DNA from: a virus
DNA length: 41,425 nucleotides
Virus record (IMG/VR): IMGVR_UViG_3300035034_001720
Coordinates: 1 to 41,425 of that record
Strand: one strand, 5' to 3'
The notes beneath the pieces were generated by a model that worked only from the letters and a program-made list of their open reading frames with translations, did not search any database and was not told the DNA's origin. Both the position numbers and the translations under genes were made by a program. Below are positions 1 through 40,917 of the stretch, in pieces; the first letter of the stretch is position 1; each line of letters starts with the position of its first letter.

Positions 1-2
1 AT

Positions 3-116
3 GGGTATTACTTTGATAGAGTCACACAGGTAGAGGCTCAAGGGGAGACTGATGTGTATGACGTTAGTGTTCCCGAAGATGTATCTTTTGTGGCAAATGG
101 AATGATTGCCCATAAC
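3..116 (+). mobile_element. Intein C-terminal splicing region (Hint blocks F and G)
   Basis: Translation from position 3 gives a Y-F-D-R-V strand, a spacer, then VYDVSVPEDVSFVANG and MIAHN followed by Cys. This matches intein block F (VYDhxV...xxFhxNGhh) and block G (h-h-H-N|C). The penultimate His (111-113), terminal Asn (114-116) and +1 Cys (117-119) are all intact, so asparagine cyclisation and splicing should work in a class 1 intein. The N-terminal splicing half and any homing endonuclease domain lie to the left of the window. It is therefore not possible to say whether this is a full, mini or split intein. Confidence 0.93.
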
Positions 117-791
117 TGCAAATACAAAAACCCCGGTTCGCCGAGGTGCAAACAAGATGGCTATTTCAAAGGTCGGGACAGTTCGATCGCCAAACGTGTT
201 GCATCCAAATTCATCCGGCTATCCTATCTACCCAACATCCCTAATCGGTTCCGTCAAGAGATGGAAAGCAAGCTCATGAGCTTCATTCGAGCCGGGCTTT
301 CCCCTTTCCCGACCGAAGATCCTCAGCGAGTCGAATCACTTCTTGCCGGGGATATTTTCAAGTTTTTGCAAAAAGAACTGCCCCCTCACGTGTCTGTTTC
401 CAATGCTGACGTCCACCAGTTCATCGGACACGTGGCTCGTCAAGTGGACGTGTCGTTGCGGTCGTCTGTGATCGAAGATGCGATGAGCGACGTTCTGGGG
501 GAATCCTACGCGGTCGATAACCGCACTGTCGGGATGCTTGCAGCGCAGATCGAGATGATGATTGATGGACTGGCTGAGGACGCTTCGCGGGGTGCCATGA
601 AAGCACAACGAAAAGCCGTCTCCCTGCTTGCTAGGGGGCTTGGTGTTGACGATTACGCGGCACAGCAAATCCTCGACTATGTGGTGTCGGAAGCCAAGAT
701 GGTGCTTCCCCTTACGTCGGATCAAATTAACTCATTGCTTGGTTCCTATTTGGACGAAGCAGCACGTGCAGCATCAAGCGAGGTATTTTAA
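3..791 (+). CDS. Intein-containing phage protein, 3' part (C-intein plus C-extein), function unknown
   Basis: The frame is open from the first complete codon at position 3, so this is the 3' end of a gene that begins outside the window. The first 38 codons are the C-terminal end of an intein. The mature C-extein begins with Cys at 117-119 and runs 224 residues to the TAA at 789-791. The extein starts with a basic segment holding two cysteines ten residues apart, then becomes a mainly helical domain with no motif I recognise. A GTG at 54 could be mistaken for a start, but it lies inside the intein motif and is not a real start. The gene precedes the tail chaperone and tape measure genes and overlaps the next start (TAATG), so a virion or packaging role is likely but unproven. 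Inteins in phages often sit in terminase, polymerase or other conserved enzymes; the N-extein needed to identify this host protein is missing. Confidence 0.85.
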   Translation, partial: GYYFDRVTQVEAQGETDVYDVSVPEDVSFVANGMIAHNCKYKNPGSPRCKQDGYFKGRDSSIAKRVASKFIRLSYLPNIPNRFRQEMESKLMSFIRAGLSPFPTEDPQRVESLLAGDIFKFLQKELPPHVSVSNADVHQFIGHVARQVDVSLRSSVIEDAMSDVLGESYAVDNRTVGMLAAQIEMMIDGLAEDASRGAMKAQRKAVSLLARGLGVDDYAAQQILDYVVSEAKMVLPLTSDQINSLLGSYLDEAARAASSEVF

Positions 792-20184: not shown

Positions 20185-23100
20185 ATGAGTGTTCCCTTCG
20201 ACGGCTTCGTTCTTCGCAAGCCTCGCATCGCAGCTTCCAACAGTCCGTTCACGGCGGAAGGCGACGTTTTTGTTCGCCAACAGGATCGCTCTACCTACCT
20301 CACCAATTTCGTGAACAATAGTAGTGCGCCTACGACCGAATATTTGGTGCAAGTCCACGAAACCGCTGACTTGGTGGTGCCTTCTGAGATCACGGAGACC
20401 GCGAAGAAAGTAAGCGAATGGGTATACCAGTTTAACAGCGAAGGCCGGGCTATTGAGTCGGTTTCTAGTGTGACTCCTACCCCGGATTCGACCGATGCAC
20501 AGTCCGGGTTGGTCAAGTACAGTAGTGATCCGGGCCAAGACGTCGTGGTCGTGTGGGAACCTGCCCGCCTCAAGATCAACTGGACCAAAAACGACGAGCG
20601 CACACGTTTCGGATTCGATGACCGTTTCCAACGATGGACCCCACTTCCGGGCGGTGCCCCCGAGAACCTCGGCACCCTACCTGACACTCCGAACGGACAG
20701 ACGCCCCTAGCTCTGCCAGTGGTGGAGGGCGGCGAACCCCTTGTGGTGATCGGTACACCCGACCAGAATACAGGCACAGTGGTACCGGTCCCGGAAGCGA
20801 ACCGCCTGACTGACGGGCAATTTCAAGCGTACATCAACGGTACCTCCTCGGTCCCCAGCGGCGAAGCGGTCCTGAACGTGGACAACGGGACCGTCCTCTT
20901 TGCTAATGATCTGGTCAATACCTATCTGAGCCAACCGGTTTACTTTTACCGGAAAAATTTCTTCGCTTACGACGCTTCGACCGGCCAGATCGGTCATGTG
21001 GGCGACGCACTTTACATGAACCCTATCCCGGACGCTACGGAGGTGCCCCGTATCCGGGTCAAGTATCGCACGTATCTCCGGGGTGAACAGTCGACTTCAA
21101 CAACCACGCCGTCGACCGGTTACGACTTCGTGTGGAACCCCAACACGGGAGCAGTCCATCTTGATAGCTCGGTGGAAGCTGACTTTGAGGGCGAGGCCAT
21201 CTATTATGATGGGGTCTTTTCAAATGCTGATCCTATCGAAAGCTATGCCCACACGAATCTAGGGTCGATCGAAGATGCGAACCCTTTTACCACGGCGGGC
21301 CTATCAGACATCGATTTCACTGCTTACGACCACGATAGCATCATCCTGTACGTCACGGAGACCGGTGAAGCTATTCGTGATCTTGAATTCGTAGAGGACA
21401 CCGGCGACTTTACCGATTCGCTCAACTTGCCGTCTACCAAGGCACAGGTGGTCCGGTCGGGTACCGACGCGGGTAAGATCCAGTTGTCGCACACTTTCCG
21501 TAGGGAAAAGGCGGACAATAACTATTCGCTGTCCGTGGGAACAAGCGACTTCCCGGTGGAGAAAGGTATTACTTTTCGCATGGAACAGTCCCCGGTTGAT
21601 CCGACAAACAACCGTGGCCTCCCGGACGGAAAAGGAGTGTCCCGTGTGGCCAATGAAATCCTGTCTACAAGTCTACCGGCAGGTCCGTCTTTCCTCTTGA
21701 ATCAGTTGCCCCTACAAGACGTGGCGGGCTATGACGACAATGTGTTTTACCAGCTAGAGCAGGGAGCCAAGCGTAAGATCCTGCAGCCGGGCCTCGATGT
21801 GATGTATGACTTCGACAACCGGCAGCTTCAGTGGGCGCAGCAGGCTTCCCATAGTTCGGTGATCCCAAGTAGCTCGTACTCGGTCCAATTACCGCACCAA
21901 ATTATCCACAACGAAAACTATTCGTTTGAACTCAATGAGGGTGGGGGCTTTGTTCCGCTGGAACCAGACGATGACGTGCTCATCAATTTCGACACGGGCA
22001 CCATCACATTCATTGAGGACGTCGGAGACGTACTTTTCGAAGACATTGGAGTCCTAACCAACCCTGATACGCTCCAAGCCGCTACGGCCAATCTGAGCGG
22101 CCTTACAGTCCCTTCTGACTCTCTGCGAGCGCCCCTTCTCCTTGTCGGCGAAGATGCTTATCGCATCGTGTCTACAACAGCGAATACGGTCACGGTCGAT
22201 CGGAACATTGACCTGTCGGGAAACATCACTGAATTCACGATCATAGAGGTGCCCGAAATCGTGTTCCGCTATGCGATGCAATCGGTGGACCTCCGGGAAC
22301 GTACCGTGTTTCCGTATGTCGTTTCAGATGTAGACACGCACGCCCCGGACGGTGAAGCCCTTGAATTCGTTTCGGACGGGTCGGTAGTGCCACATATACT
22401 CCTTGAGCCGGAAACCCTCGGAGCCCTTGGGAGTACGATCACCCTCCCAGCCTATTATCAAGCCTCGGAAGCCAACTATCGGATTTTCCGCGAAGGCGTA
22501 GAGTTGTTTTTCACGACCTCATCCCCCAACACAGGGGAGTATTCGCTCAGTGGAAACACGCTGGTGTTCAACAGCACCGATGAAGCCGATAACGTGGGGA
22601 CCGACATTATTCTGGACCCTGACCTCAGTAGCACGAGGAGTACGGGTCCTATCGAAGTGCTTGTTTCTTCGCGTGAACTTAATGTCCCTACGGACCTACA
22701 AGGGACCGACCTTGAAGTGCGTGCTCTGGTACCAGAAGATCAGTATACCCTCCAAGGTTTGGTGCTTTTCCTTGATAAGCCTTTCCGGTCGGGACAGCGG
22801 TTGTTCGTGCGGTATACGGATAGCGACGGCACCGAAATCGAAGAGGATGTTGGTTTCAGGGTCGTCGATACCCTCGGAAACGTGGGGTCCGGTGCCTCCG
22901 ACACTTTCGGTGCCGGGCGTACCGTTGACCTCCAGCGTCCTACTCAGGTGCTTGTTAATGGTGCGCGTAGTGCCCTCGAAATCAATACCACTACGAAAAC
23001 TGTATCCCTAGATTCGGTGCGGAGAGGGCGACGGGTGCAGGTGTCTTACTATGCACTCGATGCTGATGGCGGGGAGACGACGGTATCACTTTTGGAACGT

Positions 23101-26100
23101 CCGATGGGGTCCCCTGTTCTATTTGAAGAGGGAAGTACCCAGACGTTCAGGGGTGATCATACAGATGTGCTTGAAGCGGATGTGTTTTTGCAGGCGAACG
23201 ACCAGAGCTTCACGGTATTGGCGGCGGCTTATAACTCCACGACAAATGAAACGACGGTAGAGGTTTCACCGGCGGCCACCGGAGCTTTGCGCAACCCGAA
23301 CGTGCTGGTATCGACAACACCCATCACGAACACCGAAACGGTGATGGTAGAGGTTGAGGATAATAGCGCCGGGGAACAACAGCTTCGGTTGATTGGGAAC
23401 TTTACGGACAAGATCAGTGAGTCTAAGATCATCTATTTGGACGACGACCCCTATTACGTGCAGGGCGCGGAGTTCAACGAAAACAGTGGCTTCACGAGGG
23501 TCACTCTGGCGTCTGCCTTGATGCAAGAGTATACGGATCCTACGGTTGTGGTATCTACCTACGAGGTCTATGCCCCCGAAACCCAGATCCTACATGCTTC
23601 GAAATTTGGTATCCCGGAACGCACTGTTCGTCTGGTACGCTTTGATAAAACAGGCAACGGGTCTGTTTTGGAAAAGGATTTCGCATATACGTTCGAAGCG
23701 GGTGGGCGTATCATCCTCGAACCTACAGTTACGACCCCGCCAAATCCCGAAGAGGTGTGGTACCTCGCTTACACGGCATTGCGTGAAGTGGGGCCACGAT
23801 CTATCGCCGGGCAAACGTTCTTGCCCCGGTTCAAAGCGTCGTACACAAGACGGGTTAACGCCACGGAAGATAACGGTATCAAAGGGGCTATGCTCCGGGC
23901 GTCGTTCGATTTTTCGTCCCCCGACACGTTTTATTTCAGGGCCGTGCGTATGGAGGAGTACGCCTTTGAGGTGGCCGAAGAGATCAACTCCAAGGCCAGA
24001 CAGAGCGCCCCTTCGGGAGGGCCTGTCTTGTCCACCGCGCAGAGTCAAGACCTGTTCAAGAAAGGTAATGAAGGCTTGATTTTCGAAGGTGGTAACTTGC
24101 GGGACCAAGACCGTGCAGGTCGGGTGTTCCTAGAATTCTACAACCAGATCATCCTCAAGTTCGAAGAGGTCTTGGAAGTTATCGACGGACGGGTGGTGGG
24201 TGACCGTGACAGTAAGTTTGTTTTCCGTTTGCGTAATGACAACACGCCGGGCGGTATTGACCCTGTGACGGGAGAACTCATCCCGTTCTACGCCAACCCG
24301 CAAAGCCCCGGCACCAAGCCCACGCCCACAGAGATCGCCAACACTAAAAACCTTTCCAGCCAGATGGGTGCCGTCGAAAATTACATCGACGACCTTGTGA
24401 TGGTGAGCAAGAAGCCTTTCAAGCTGGAGATCGGGTTGCCCCTCGATTTCAAGTTTCAGGGGACTTTCAGGCCGGTATGGAAGCCTTCGAAATTTAGCCG
24501 ACTGTACCCGGAGCAAAAGCAAAGTTTCTCGATCACTGTCCCGCAAATAGACGGGGACCAGGAGTATGAATTCCCAGATGATTTCTTACATATCTTGGCG
24601 GACCCCCAACAGGAAAGCATCCTTTCGCTTGAAAACGTCCGCAAACGTGCTGCCAAAGCCCGTGTGCGGGAAGGTGGAACTTTCTCAGCTTCCACAGGTG
24701 ATGTGCGTATCCATGTGGCGATGGAGTACGATCCGGTTACTGGCGATTTCAGTAACACAACCTACGATCCCACGGGACCCGTACCGGAACTGTATATCCC
24801 GGCCTTTGAAGTGGGCGACCACGTGAACCTTGGCCGGGTGACTTATTCGGTTTCAGGTGGTGTGATTGACCAGACGACTACCCTCTACGGACAGAACCTC
24901 ATTGTTGCTGCGGTAGGTGCCGATTACATCGAAGTCAGCACGAACCCTGAAAATGGCAACTCAGATTTCAACGATCTGACGATGACCGACGCAACGACCT
25001 TGAGTCCTCAGAAAGGGGACACGATCTATACAGTGCCCCCGGTGGCGGATTCGGGGTTTGTACTCGGGGAAAGCACGCCGCCATACTATCGAACGCCCCT
25101 TGACATGTTCGTCAATTCATCGGAAGGCGAATTGATCAACACAACGCTCCCCGGCTTCATTGCGAAGCTGTTAGGCCAGTCCCCTATCAGTCCGGGTACA
25201 TTCCTCGACATGACGGTGAATTTCCGCAATCAACGCACAGAACCGTTTAGATTCCCGGCACTTGACGGTGGTGTGGTAGACGACGATGGTGATCAGCCGC
25301 CGCCGTTTGTTACCCCATTCAAGGACAGTGAGATCCAACGTCTCAATGCGGAGTTAGTCGCCAACCAGACGGTCATAGACGACACCGATGGTGGCACAGT
25401 AATCGAAGGCACCCTTGTCGATGCTGTGACCCTTTCGGTATCTACCGACCTGACAGCAATCGCTAACCCACCGGACGAGTTCGATCTTGTGGTGGCGGAT
25501 AGCATTACGGAATTAGGCGACTCAGTAGAGTTCGATGTTGGTAGCATTGATCCGTCCAATGTGCGTTTGGCGTCCTTTGTGACCCCGGATACCGTGAACT
25601 TCACGGTAGAGAAACTTTATGAGGGTACAGATGGCGAACGCGATACTGTAACTACGAGGTGGAATGACGGTACCAAAGACTTTACTGATTTCAGTGGTTT
25701 CGATACGATGACCCTCCACGTTTCAGATGGGGCCGGGGGCTATAGCGCATACGATGTGGATTCAGTGTTCGATGGGTATCTCATAACGTCAAACCCGATC
25801 GCTGAATCTGGACCCACCGACTATTATCTGTCCCTTTCAGATAGCGGCAGCATCCCGGCTACCATTGACCGGATCAACTCAACGGGCATTGATTTCAGCG
25901 ATGCTACAGGTGATGTGACGGTAAGTGGTGGTGGTCCCAACAATGGGACCTCGTACACAGCTAAAGGTGGTGGACCCGGATTTTTGCATATCGAAACGAT
26001 CCCTTTAAGTATCGGGGATCAGGTCGTCATTGGTATTTCCAATGCTTCGGTCGTCGCTTCGGGTACGGGTTCGGTGGACGCCGCAGGTTCGGTGATGCAA

Positions 26101-37642: not shown

Positions 37643-38035
37643 ATGTCCCAAATGACCAATTATTTGGAAAATGCACTGGTCAATCACGTGCTTCGCAACA
37701 CGGCATTGACTTCGCCCACAACCGTGTACCTAGCACTTTACGATGCTTCCCCTACCGATACAGGTACGGGTGGTACTGAGATCACAGGTACGGGCTATAG
37801 TAGGCAGAGCGTAACGTTTACGGCACCTACTAACGGATCCACTTCAAACTCCAGCACACTTAGTTTCACGAACGGTAGCGGCGGTAACTGGACGATTGCC
37901 GCTGTTGGTATTATGGATGCCAGTAGTGGTGGTAACATGCTCTTTCACGGCACCCTAACCGGAGGCAGTAAAACCGTTGCAGACGGTGATACCATCACGT
38001 TCAACGCTGGTGATCTCGACATCACGCTTGCTTAA
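37643..38035 (+). CDS. Small phage fibre- or decoration-associated beta protein
   Basis: This 130-residue protein is beta-rich and low in charge. It begins with a helix (N-Y-L-E-N-A-L-V-N-H-V-L-R-N-T), continues T-V-Y-L-A-L-Y-D-A-S-P-T-D-T-G, G-Y-S-R-Q-S-V-T-F and W-T-I-A-A-V-G-I-M-D-A-S-S-G-G-N-M-L-F-H-G, and ends D-G-D-T-I-T-F-N-A-G-D-L-D-I. I recognise this as a widespread phage structural family of unsettled role, often encoded near fibre or decoration genes. A strong AAGGAG ribosome site precedes ATG 37643. The 59-base gap before it shows no clear promoter. Its TAA overlaps the stop codon of the convergent minus-strand gene. Confidence 0.75.
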   Translation: MSQMTNYLENALVNHVLRNTALTSPTTVYLALYDASPTDTGTGGTEITGTGYSRQSVTFTAPTNGSTSNSSTLSFTNGSGGNWTIAAVGIMDASSGGNMLFHGTLTGGSKTVADGDTITFNAGDLDITLA

Positions 38036-38622
38036 TTGAGCGTTTCGGGCTTGATGGGTTCTTGGCGGTTCACTTCGTCCATCACGTAATCGCCCCACAT
38101 GAGGACCACTTTGTTACGGTCCGTATCGTGGGATACCAGAGCAACTTCGGTTTCCGCATCCACCGTCGTAACCAACACTGACCTCCCATTATAGGGTGGC
38201 GGATCTCCCGGAAGAAGGGGCACGGTCGCAATTGTGATCGCGTCCCTTTTTTCTATGGTGCTCAGGTCGACGGGTGGTTCTTCGAACCCTACGTACATGA
38301 AATCGTCATGCTGCCGGATCACGGGAAGCATCATGCCCGGCTCATATCCCGGAACCGCAAGTGCCGTCAAAAAATTGACTTCCAGCATCGAGTTTTTGAG
38401 AAGGCCAATGTCCCGGAGCATTAGGAACATTTGCTGGTAGCGGTGGATATGGGTGGTGAACCCTTCCATAAAAACGGCCCTATCCACCTTGAGGGTTTTA
38501 TCGTCCTCGGCGATAGGGCCGGTCAAAAGTTCGTCTACTTGGTTTTCGAACTCGTCTTGGAGTTCAGTGAACAGACCACCTAGACGGTCGGATGGAAAAA
38601 AGATCGCACTATCGTCAGACAT
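38032..38622 (-). CDS. Acidic protein of 196 residues, unknown
   Basis: The gene reads leftwards and ends at TAA on the minus strand (38034-38032), sharing the bases TTAA with the stop of the plus-strand gene. A good AGGGAG ribosome site precedes its ATG at 38622. The N-terminal half is helical (L-F-T-E-L-Q-D-E-F-E-N-Q-V-D-E-L); the C-terminal half is beta-rich (I-T-I-A-T-V-P-L-L, S-V-L-V-T-T-V-D-A-E-T-E-V-A-L-V). No family is recognised. It is the last gene of the minus-strand group with the RNA ligase, 63 bases downstream of it, and carries its own candidate leader motif, so it may be separately expressed. Confidence 0.72.
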   Translation of the reverse strand: MSDDSAIFFPSDRLGGLFTELQDEFENQVDELLTGPIAEDDKTLKVDRAVFMEGFTTHIHRYQQMFLMLRDIGLLKNSMLEVNFLTALAVPGYEPGMMLPVIRQHDDFMYVGFEEPPVDLSTIEKRDAITIATVPLLPGDPPPYNGRSVLVTTVDAETEVALVSHDTDRNKVVLMWGDYVMDEVNRQEPIKPETLN

Positions 38623-38685: not shown

Positions 38686-39966
38686 TTATTCTGACTGCTC
38701 TTTTGCTTTTTGTTTCGCGTCGAGGATTTCACCCTTGATGCCACTGTACAACTCATGTTGCCACATGACGTCGAAGAGGATCACACTTTCACTGTTATAA
38801 CAATTCATTATCAATGCAAAGTCCGCTCTAGTATACTGATCTTTAGCGTACAAAGCAAGGGCCTTTTGTTCCTCTGAAGGGTCCACGGGATGTACCTCTT
38901 CGAGGCATTCGGCCAACATGTCACGCACCTCATCCGCACGGGAACGACATTTCGCAAGCCAATCTAGGTATTGCGTGTGGTACTTTTTGTAGTACTCCAG
39001 CGTTTCCTCAGACGTCGAACCCTCGTCGATCAAGTAGGTCTTGAGGGCTTCCCATTTTTCGAACTCAGGCTTGCCGAAACATATTTTGGTGACAGTTTTA
39101 ATCGAACAACTGTACCGGAGCGCGAACTCCCACCGCCACCGTTCTGTTTTAGCCTTGACCCGGTGAACGATACGCCCGTCCTTTTCGAAGCAGATCACAC
39201 CCCCTTCCGGCAACCAATCAGCATCCTCTAGGCCCAACACTGTTTCCACCGCCTCCGCCAGTGTTGTATTCTTGGCAAGGTATTCCACCGGCTTACAGTT
39301 GTTATCCTCGGCCCACTCCATCACGCGGTCGTTGGTCCAATACGTGTGGGTGTCCAAGTCAAACACCGAAAGCACAATCAGATCTTCTCGGTCCCCATAT
39401 TTAGTGACGCCCGATTCGCATTCCGGGTGCAGAGCTTCACAAACGATGGTTTTACCGCGAATCACCTCGGGATCGAGCAACGCGGGGTACTGGTCCTCAG
39501 CGATGCGTCGAATAGCCCCGACATAATCGAAATCCGCGCCGTGGACATTGATATCCACACCTTCGAGCATACTACGGGTCGATACGTAAACCTCACCGTC
39601 GTACTCGAAGATTTGCGCCATGTAACCGTCGTCTTTGAACGGCAAACTTACGCGCAGCGCTTCATCTTGCGCAAGGGCATGGGTTACCTCGTCGACCTTA
39701 CCCTTTTCGCCGTGGTTGTAAATCTTGAGCAAGGGCAACGACACCACCTCATAAGGATCACGTCGGTAAACGATGCCCTTGGCGTAAAGCTGGTGCTCCC
39801 ATTCCGGCGTGAACAGGATGCTGGAAGCATTCGCAATCACAAGCCCATTGTCGTGATCTCGCTGGTTAAGCATTTCATCGCCGTCGATAAGCGACAAGAC
39901 CTCCTCCGGGTTGTCCCGGAGCTTACCCAAGAGGTAATCGATATGTACGTTCGTTACAGCTTTCAT
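38686..39966 (-). CDS. T4 Rnl1-type RNA ligase
   Basis: This 426-residue protein is an ATP-dependent RNA ligase that would join 5'-phosphate and 3'-hydroxyl RNA ends. I chose the ATG at 39966, which has a GGAG site and overlaps the TGA of the preceding gene (ATGA); a longer frame exists but lacks support. Motifs: the Rnl1-type N-terminal Y-R-R-D-P-Y-E-V-V-S-L-P-L-L-K-I-Y-N-H-G-E (67-87), nucleotidyl-accepting K111 in F-K-D-D-G-Y (usual K-x-D-G-S), S-T-R131, T-I-V-C-E177-A-L, E254-G-G-V-I (motif IV), and K271-A-K273 (motif V). Residues about 285-426 form a helical C-terminal domain, where T4 Rnl1 binds tRNA. The adjacent phosphatase gene supports a repair operon. Tyr in place of Ser in the K-x-D-G-S motif is unusual. 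Confidence 0.88.
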   Translation of the reverse strand: MKAVTNVHIDYLLGKLRDNPEEVLSLIDGDEMLNQRDHDNGLVIANASSILFTPEWEHQLYAKGIVYRRDPYEVVSLPLLKIYNHGEKGKVDEVTHALAQDEALRVSLPFKDDGYMAQIFEYDGEVYVSTRSMLEGVDINVHGADFDYVGAIRRIAEDQYPALLDPEVIRGKTIVCEALHPECESGVTKYGDREDLIVLSVFDLDTHTYWTNDRVMEWAEDNNCKPVEYLAKNTTLAEAVETVLGLEDADWLPEGGVICFEKDGRIVHRVKAKTERWRWEFALRYSCSIKTVTKICFGKPEFEKWEALKTYLIDEGSTSEETLEYYKKYHTQYLDWLAKCRSRADEVRDMLAECLEEVHPVDPSEEQKALALYAKDQYTRADFALIMNCYNSESVILFDVMWQHELYSGIKGEILDAKQKAKEQSE

Positions 39967-40226
39967 GCTATTTTCTCCGCCACCCATATCAAGGGGTGGT
40001 AAATCCACAACACAGTATCATTGATGCGGTCGAATATGCCCTCTCTCAAATCCCACATGTGGTAGATTGCACCCACGAAAATGAGGGGCAACGTGACCGG
40101 CAGCACTAACAGGCAATAGGCCGCCAGTGCAAGGAGCCCAATCACATAAACAAAGGGCGTAAGCGTAAGCAGCACAACCGCCAGTGCCTTTTTCCAGAGG
40201 GGTGAACGATTAATGGCTATCCGCAT
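39963..40226 (-). CDS. Small membrane protein of 87 residues in the RNA-repair operon
   Basis: The protein has a short basic N-terminus (MRIAINRSPLWKK). Two hydrophobic helices follow, near residues 14-34 (ALAVVLLTLTPFVYVIGLL) and 36-54 (AYCLLVLPVTLPLIFVGAI), then an amphipathic C-terminal segment with several Trp. The gene overlaps the phosphatase gene by 17 bases at its start and the RNA ligase by four bases at its end, so it is made with both. Family and function are unknown. It might anchor the repair proteins at the membrane or be an unrelated passenger. Confidence 0.75.
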   Translation of the reverse strand: MRIAINRSPLWKKALAVVLLTLTPFVYVIGLLALAAYCLLVLPVTLPLIFVGAIYHMWDLREGIFDRINDTVLWIYHPLIWVAEKIA

Positions 40227-40917
40227 AGTATACCTCTTTCGCTTCCACCTGTACCACTTCCCGCTCAGGCCACCTCAGAGCCGCCAAGGTGTTTCCCTTG
40301 ACGCAAGACGTATCCACGCAACAGTAGTGCTCATGAACGGTCGGGTCGTCCATCCAGTAGTGTCCAAAGACAACAAACTCGGGGCCTTCGTAATCCCTCC
40401 ACCATTCGATTCGGGAATTATCCGGGCCGCCACGGAGGCCGTACATACGCAATTTGGCCTTGCCATTGAACGCATGGACAGCAACGGCTTCACCACCGTC
40501 CAGTTCGATCTTGGTAGGCACTTCCTCTAAGAGGAATTCACCTAGCTCGGTTCTGGGGCTATCGAACGGCCACCCTTGCTCAAGCTCGGAAACCGTTTTC
40601 TGTAACCCGTGTGCGATGGAAACGGGGTTGCCTTTCATCCATCGGAACAGCTTGTTGTCGTGGTTGCCTTGCACCCACAGGGCTTTGCCCGCTATCCAAT
40701 GGAAATAGGCAAACTGCAGGGCGAGGCTGTTATAATACCCACGATCTGTGATATCCCCCACCAGCACAAGCATCCGCCCTTCGGGGTGTTCGTACAGGCC
40801 ATCTTCACCCATAACGTAACCGAGCTTTTCAACGAGTGCGATTAGTTCGTAGTAACACCCGTGGACGTCGCCTACGGCGTCGAAGTGGGTAACGTGTTTT
40901 GCGTCGAGTGTCGTCAT
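40210..40917 (-). CDS. Pnkp-like calcineurin-type metallophosphatase
   Basis: This 235-residue protein has the full binuclear metallophosphatase motif set: G16-D17-V-H19-G-C, G54-D55-x-x-D58-R59-G, G84-N85-H86-D87-N-K-L, V-A-V-H148, and F-G185-H186-Y-W. The C-terminal D202-T-S-C-V-K-G-N-T-L-A-A-L-R-W-P-E-R-E is typical of the phosphatase module of bacterial polynucleotide kinase-phosphatase (Pnkp) and its PrpE/ApaH-like relatives. The H-G-L-Q-K-T-V-S-E-L-E segment near residue 103 and E-L-x-x-L-V-E-K-L-G-Y near residue 25 also fit Pnkp. Pnkp phosphatases remove 2',3'-cyclic or 3' phosphates to prepare ends for ligation. No kinase domain is attached. Alternative: a diadenosine tetraphosphatase or a lambda-type protein phosphatase. 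The co-operonic RNA ligase favours RNA end healing. It is first in the minus-strand operon. Confidence 0.86.
   Translation of the reverse strand: MTTLDAKHVTHFDAVGDVHGCYYELIALVEKLGYVMGEDGLYEHPEGRMLVLVGDITDRGYYNSLALQFAYFHWIAGKALWVQGNHDNKLFRWMKGNPVSIAHGLQKTVSELEQGWPFDSPRTELGEFLLEEVPTKIELDGGEAVAVHAFNGKAKLRMYGLRGGPDNSRIEWWRDYEGPEFVVFGHYWMDDPTVHEHYCCVDTSCVKGNTLAALRWPEREVVQVEAKEVYYADSH

Follow-up and report, generated by a model that had tools for sequence, protein, structure and literature searches.

A compact viral gene cluster encoding a Pnkp-type phosphatase, a small membrane protein and an Rnl1-family ligase, predicted to act in RNA repair

Results

The window, that is the whole 41,425-nt stretch of viral DNA analyzed here, is an IMG/VR virus record that corresponds with 99.99% identity to bases 22744-64168 of a longer contig, IMGVR_UViG_3300028377_000005 (115,647 b), referred to below as the parent contig. 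A DNA search of the window against phages gave no match. On its minus strand lie three overlapping genes for a phosphatase, a small membrane protein and an RNA ligase (Table 1), and all of these open reading frames are present as a first-pass annotation had described them. The genes for the phosphatase and the membrane protein share 17 bases (40210-40226), and those for the membrane protein and the ligase share 4 bases (39963-39966) if the ligase is counted from its ATG at 39966; the longest ligase ORF begins at a GTG at 40008. No promoter or terminator signal above chance was found at the operon, and it is thus the gene overlaps that suggest co-transcription. A possible fourth gene of the operon, which follows the ligase, occupies the same position in the related contig L004 (49% identity) and was not found in the more distant relative L046. 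This 196-aa ORF had no family match in the databases searched, Pfam and PHROG among them, and its AlphaFold model from a two-sequence alignment was discarded at a pLDDT of 36. In the window, L004 and L046 alike, the cluster adjoins homologous large tail genes, to which it runs in the opposite direction in the window.

Table 1. Genes of the operon in the window and repair-related genes elsewhere on the parent contig
Feature	Length	Position	Strand	Basis
Pnkp-type (calcineurin-fold) phosphatase, predicted	235 aa	window 40210..40917	-	PF00149, 4j6o, TIGR04075
Small membrane protein	87 aa	window 39963..40226	-	hydropathy, two predicted transmembrane helices
Rnl1-family RNA ligase, predicted	426 aa from ATG 39966	window 38686..39966	-	PF09511, PHROG 562, HH match
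Possible fourth operon gene	196 aa	window 38032..38622	-	63 bases past ligase stop; kept in L004
Pnkp-type kinase, predicted	181 aa	parent contig 67634-68179	same strand as operon	4jst, TIGR04075
2H phosphoesterase		parent contig 70629-71186		PF13563, 1.3e-10
Second 2H-type phosphoesterase		parent contig 106878-107342 (L014:9378-9842)		PF08302, 31.1 bits (cut-off 23)

The phosphatase matches the calcineurin-like family PF00149 (E 1.5e-11) and is not of the HAD type found in T4 Pnkp. By far its best solved structure is 4j6o (E 1.6e-34), entered under the title 'Metallophosphoesterase', which we take to be the phosphatase domain of Clostridium thermocellum Pnkp; ApaH (1e-8) and the lambda phosphatase (2e-5) follow at a distance. 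Among the NCBIfam models the bacterial Pnkp model ranks first (bacter_Pnkp, 165 bits), ahead of PrpE (145 bits) and ApaH (57 and 41 bits), and the L004 homolog shows the same preference (Pnkp 179 bits, PrpE 148 bits). Scores against the Ap4A hydrolase models lie below their cut-offs of 340 bits for PrpE and of 176 and 223 bits for ApaH. The match to the Pnkp model TIGR04075 (E 1.7e-48) covers model positions 180-419, which is its phosphatase part, and the metal-binding and active-site residues that align with bacterial Pnkp are conserved (D17, H19, D55, R59, N85, H86, H148, H186 and D202). Full-length plasmid matches, at 31-38% identity, are overwhelmingly annotated as polynucleotide kinase-phosphatase, and most of the genome-contig relatives in the retained set (69 of 80) are ORFs of at least 650 aa. 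In a tree of 45 domains the protein groups with the L004 and L046 phosphatases (99/96 support). The first-pass annotation had regarded clustering with Ap4A hydrolases or protein phosphatases, together with a lack of activity on RNA ends, as speaking against its reading: lambda NinI stands in a group of its own, and the clade of the window protein is not separated from Pnkp, PrpE-like and ApaH rows. Since the tree leaves the clade mixed, the assignment draws on profile scores and genomic context. Overall, these data support a phosphatase of the Pnkp type, with profile scores best for bacterial Pnkp.

The ligase matches PF09511 above the cut-off (1.4e-8) and PHROG 562 (1.5e-16; 1.4e-22 for the L004 ligase), a family whose name covers both RNA ligase and tail-fibre attachment. 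An HH comparison of four family members with ten phage Rnl1-type ligases aligned residues 20-283 (probability 99.5, E 2.5e-22). A protein search gave no match at 1e-5, and a PDB search with the ligase profile gave nothing above chance level. The nucleotidyltransferase motifs I, IIIa, IV and V of Rnl1-type ligases (PF09511) are present, with K111-x-DG (motif I), E177, E254-G (motif IV) and K271-x-K273 (motif V) invariant in the window, L004 and L046; where other Rnl1 sequences have the arginine of an 'ARG' motif, this family has a lysine (AKG). The C-terminal third lies outside the HH match to Rnl1. As this match ends at residue 283 and an AlphaFold model from a two-sequence alignment reached a pLDDT of only 34 and was discarded, we do not tie this part to the tRNA-specificity domain of T4 Rnl1. 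Membership in the Rnl1 family is well supported, and the protein is predicted to seal RNA.

The membrane protein between the two enzymes has two predicted hydrophobic helices at about residues 15-32 and 37-54, as judged by hydropathy, and neither Pfam nor PHROG gave a match that passed the cut-off. L004 has two such genes at the same position, both for proteins with two predicted hydrophobic helices. When three sequences were compared, the window and L004 proteins matched at E 6.8e-9, and a contig search gave E 6e-6. This match corresponds to only 23% identity, whereas the flanking phosphatase and ligase are 79% and 55% identical. In L046 no membrane gene lies between the phosphatase and ligase parts. 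A kinship to Y1_50 of the Pseudomonas phage vB_PF_Y1-MI was considered and is not supported by comparison.

The first-pass annotation had seen no kinase, which holds within the window and not for the genome: a gene for a Pnkp-type kinase is located 3.5 kb beyond the window end. Its best solved relative is the kinase domain of C. thermocellum Pnkp (PDB 4jst, E 4.3e-24), it matches TIGR04075 at positions 7-144 (E 4.5e-27, 95 bits) and it carries the P-loop and the DATN motif of the bacterial Pnkp kinase domain. Because plus-strand genes intervene, including one for topoisomerase IB, the kinase gene is a neighbor outside the operon. Two 2H-type phosphoesterases are encoded on the parent contig as well. 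The one matching PF13563 has a counterpart in L046, and in both contigs it is found ~2-3 kb from the kinase (about 2 kb in L046). The other, which sits among tail genes, has its match in PF08302, the (cyclic) phosphodiesterase domain of fungal tRNA ligase; searches of two relative contigs did not find it. Neither phage tRNA genes nor RtcB were found on the contig, and the model of bacterial Hen1 (TIGR04074) had no match in three contigs, which are possibly incomplete. A methyltransferase-like gene near the kinase (L003:7191-7727) was considered as Hen1 and ruled out by a family scan.

Some further features of this region were recorded. The topoisomerase IB gene that adjoins the repair cluster (parent contig 64542-65549; L003:8112-9119) is of the eukaryote/poxvirus type (PF01028, 1e-31) and, judged by position and length, is also present in L004. 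A DUF6011 protein is encoded at L003:3772-4440, and the L046 contig has a similar one (L200:2881-3501), likewise close to the kinase. At the other end, a 735-aa ORF (window 1-791; parent contig 21327-23534) has an intein-bearing look by eye. Bases 21459-22931 of the parent contig are 97.7% identical to IMGVR_UViG_3300039190_000120, compared with about 64-77% for most other aligned stretches, as if this segment had moved recently.

The first-pass annotation had suggested searching related phage genomes for the same gene order, and this search supported the linkage. The relatives are L004 (a 96 kb contig), L005 (35 kb, essentially a subset of L004) and L046 (IMGVR_UViG_3300017987_000070), and the phosphatase-ligase pairing is kept in all three. 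L004 and L005 have the order phosphatase, membrane protein, membrane protein, ligase, with overlaps of 14, 4 and 4 bases in L004, where a kinase gene (86% identity) is located nearby. Between the window and L004, pN is 0.15 for the phosphatase, 0.30 for the ligase and 0.10 for the kinase at pS values of 0.74-0.80, and since they are under purifying selection these genes are not chance ORFs. In L046 a single 689-aa ORF next to homologous tail genes encodes phosphatase (46% identity to the window protein) and ligase (38%) as a fusion, and the kinase has a gene of its own on the same contig (35%, E 4.5e-27). Scans with two-sequence alignments of phosphatase, ligase and kinase brought back only the same contigs. 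Neither a phosphatase nor a kinase could be detected in the 31-kb fragment that carries a remoter relative of the ligase (L218, 30% identity); this fragment is GC-rich and encodes a predicted membrane protein two genes upstream of the ligase relative (L218:505-885). That phosphatase and ligase are fused in one lineage and closely linked in another argues strongly for joint action of the two. At the level of sequence, the family identities, the intact catalytic motifs and this partnership are established.

Discussion

We propose that the operon provides the 3'-end healing and sealing steps of a phage RNA-repair pathway, a well-supported reading that we consider likely. That the enzymes act on RNA ends, that tRNA is their substrate and that they serve in counter-defence is what we infer. 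Host ribotoxins would leave 2',3'-cyclic or 3'-phosphate ends together with 5'-OH ends. The Pnkp-type phosphatase could strip the 3' phosphate, and possibly also the cyclic end, and the phage 2H phosphoesterases may help by opening cyclic ends. The separate Pnkp-type kinase would then phosphorylate the 5' end and the Rnl1-family ligase would seal the nick. The most plausible target of this pathway would be tRNA that an anticodon nuclease or toxin of the host cleaves in the course of infection.

Other readings of the locus were weighed. If the phosphatase were instead an Ap4A hydrolase akin to PrpE/ApaH, or a protein phosphatase of the lambda type, its position beside an RNA ligase would be a matter of chance. 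In favor of this, the protein stands alone and has the size of PrpE (about 240 aa), PrpE is the second-best NCBIfam match, and the tree does not part the clade from PrpE-like and ApaH rows. However, the Pnkp model outscores PrpE for both the window and the L004 protein, full-length plasmid matches overwhelmingly point to Pnkp, the L046 phosphatase is fused to the same ligase, a Pnkp-type kinase occurs as a separate gene in both lineages, and lambda NinI groups apart, which makes this alternative quite unlikely. A role of the ligase mainly in virion assembly, like that of T4 gp63 in promoting tail-fibre attachment, is suggested by the double name of PHROG 562 and by the homologous tail genes next to the cluster in the window, L004 and L046. 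We regard it as barely plausible given that the window cluster runs opposite to the tail genes, that the ligase motifs are intact and that the ligase is co-inherited and even fused with an end-healing enzyme.

DNA ends, too, can be substrates of Pnkp-type kinase and phosphatase domains. Together with the lack of detected phage tRNA genes and an HH match to Rnl1 that ends at residue 283, short of any putative tRNA-specificity region, this would fit a system for DNA nick repair or for general processing of phage RNA rather than for tRNA cut in host defence. Still, Rnl1-family ligases seal RNA, 2H/CPD-type enzymes act on 2',3'-cyclic RNA ends, and two 2H-type enzymes are present on the contig by family match; we therefore consider this reading unlikely as well. 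As to the membrane protein, one might imagine that it holds the enzymes for healing and sealing at the inner membrane in an anchored RNA-repair complex directed against a membrane-linked or injected ribonuclease. Given its rapid evolution and its absence from the fused L046 version, a role in repair is unsupported; we find the anchoring model very unlikely and the protein is probably an accessory or a passenger.

The proposed repair of tRNA by end healing and sealing can be compared with several known systems. Because phosphatase and kinase each match separate domains of bacterial Pnkp best, the system reads as a split Pnkp beside an Rnl1-family ligase, unlike the T4 design. Bacterial Pnkp of the C. 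thermocellum type, the partner of Hen1, combines a kinase and a calcineurin-type phosphatase domain in one protein and seals by its own ligase domain, whereas here the two healing enzymes are separate genes, the ligase belongs to the Rnl1 family and no Hen1 was found in the three contigs. Accordingly, phosphatase (165 bits) and kinase (95 bits) both stay below the TIGR04075 cut-off of 750 bits for full Pnkp. T4 Pnkp and Rnl1, with which the first-pass annotation had drawn a parallel, follow the same overall heal-and-seal logic, with the T4 phosphatase fused to its kinase. The parallel holds functionally and does not extend to homology of the phosphatases, because the T4 Pnkp phosphatase resembles Pnkp1 in fold, and this fold and the Pnkp-Hen1 type fall into different superfamilies (PMC4411300).

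The first-pass annotation also knew of no phage RNA-repair operon with this gene order, a suggestion of novelty that has to be toned down, as orders of this kind have precedents. In the Pseudomonas phages VCM, vB_PF_Y1-MI and Boevelstad the same functional order is found, with a phosphoesterase, small ORFs, Rnl1 and a P-loop kinase/ATPase, and in Y1-MI one of the small genes between phosphoesterase and Rnl1 encodes a predicted membrane protein not detectably related to that of the window. Their phosphoesterase differs in belonging to another subfamily (weak PF12850), and their kinase is encoded directly downstream. In the Pseudomonas phage Adele (Pakpunavirus) a kinase without a phosphatase domain has been proposed to restore cut tRNA together with RNA ligases; no partner phosphatase was assigned, and 17 phage tRNAs are present, compared with none found on our contig (PMC12846349). 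In Y1-MI (L032:4125-7259) and VCM (L033:5188-7689) a calcineurin-like phosphoesterase gene lies shortly before those of Rnl1 and a kinase, and a phosphoesterase of this type may be the missing phosphatase of the Adele repair set. A survey of jumbo phages likewise pairs ATP-dependent RNA ligases with kinases, with 2H enzymes and in some cases with calcineurin-like phosphatases, and also lists HAD phosphatases alongside phage RNA ligases (PMC7824862).

In Twort/SPbeta-type phages the same three activities from the families PF13671, PF00149 and PF09511 are united in one protein of about 730-750 aa, apparently PHROG 8238, which is carried by cultured Staphylococcus and Brochothrix phages, SPbeta-like Bacillus phages and others. 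Compared with this triple fusion, the genes described here are split and their phosphatase is nearer to bacterial Pnkp. The L046 protein, in which a Pnkp-type phosphatase is joined to an Rnl1-family ligase, lends support to an RNA-repair assignment for orphan calcineurin-like phosphatases beside phage RNA ligases, for example in Pseudomonas phages whose kinase is without a phosphatase domain. In conclusion, the phage RNA-repair strategy itself is known and what is new is the layout, in which the Pnkp-type healing enzymes are split and the ligase is of the Rnl1 family, so that healing and sealing activities now appear in three layouts: split as on the contig described here, with phosphatase and ligase fused and the kinase separate as in L046, or entirely fused as in Twort/SPbeta-type phages.
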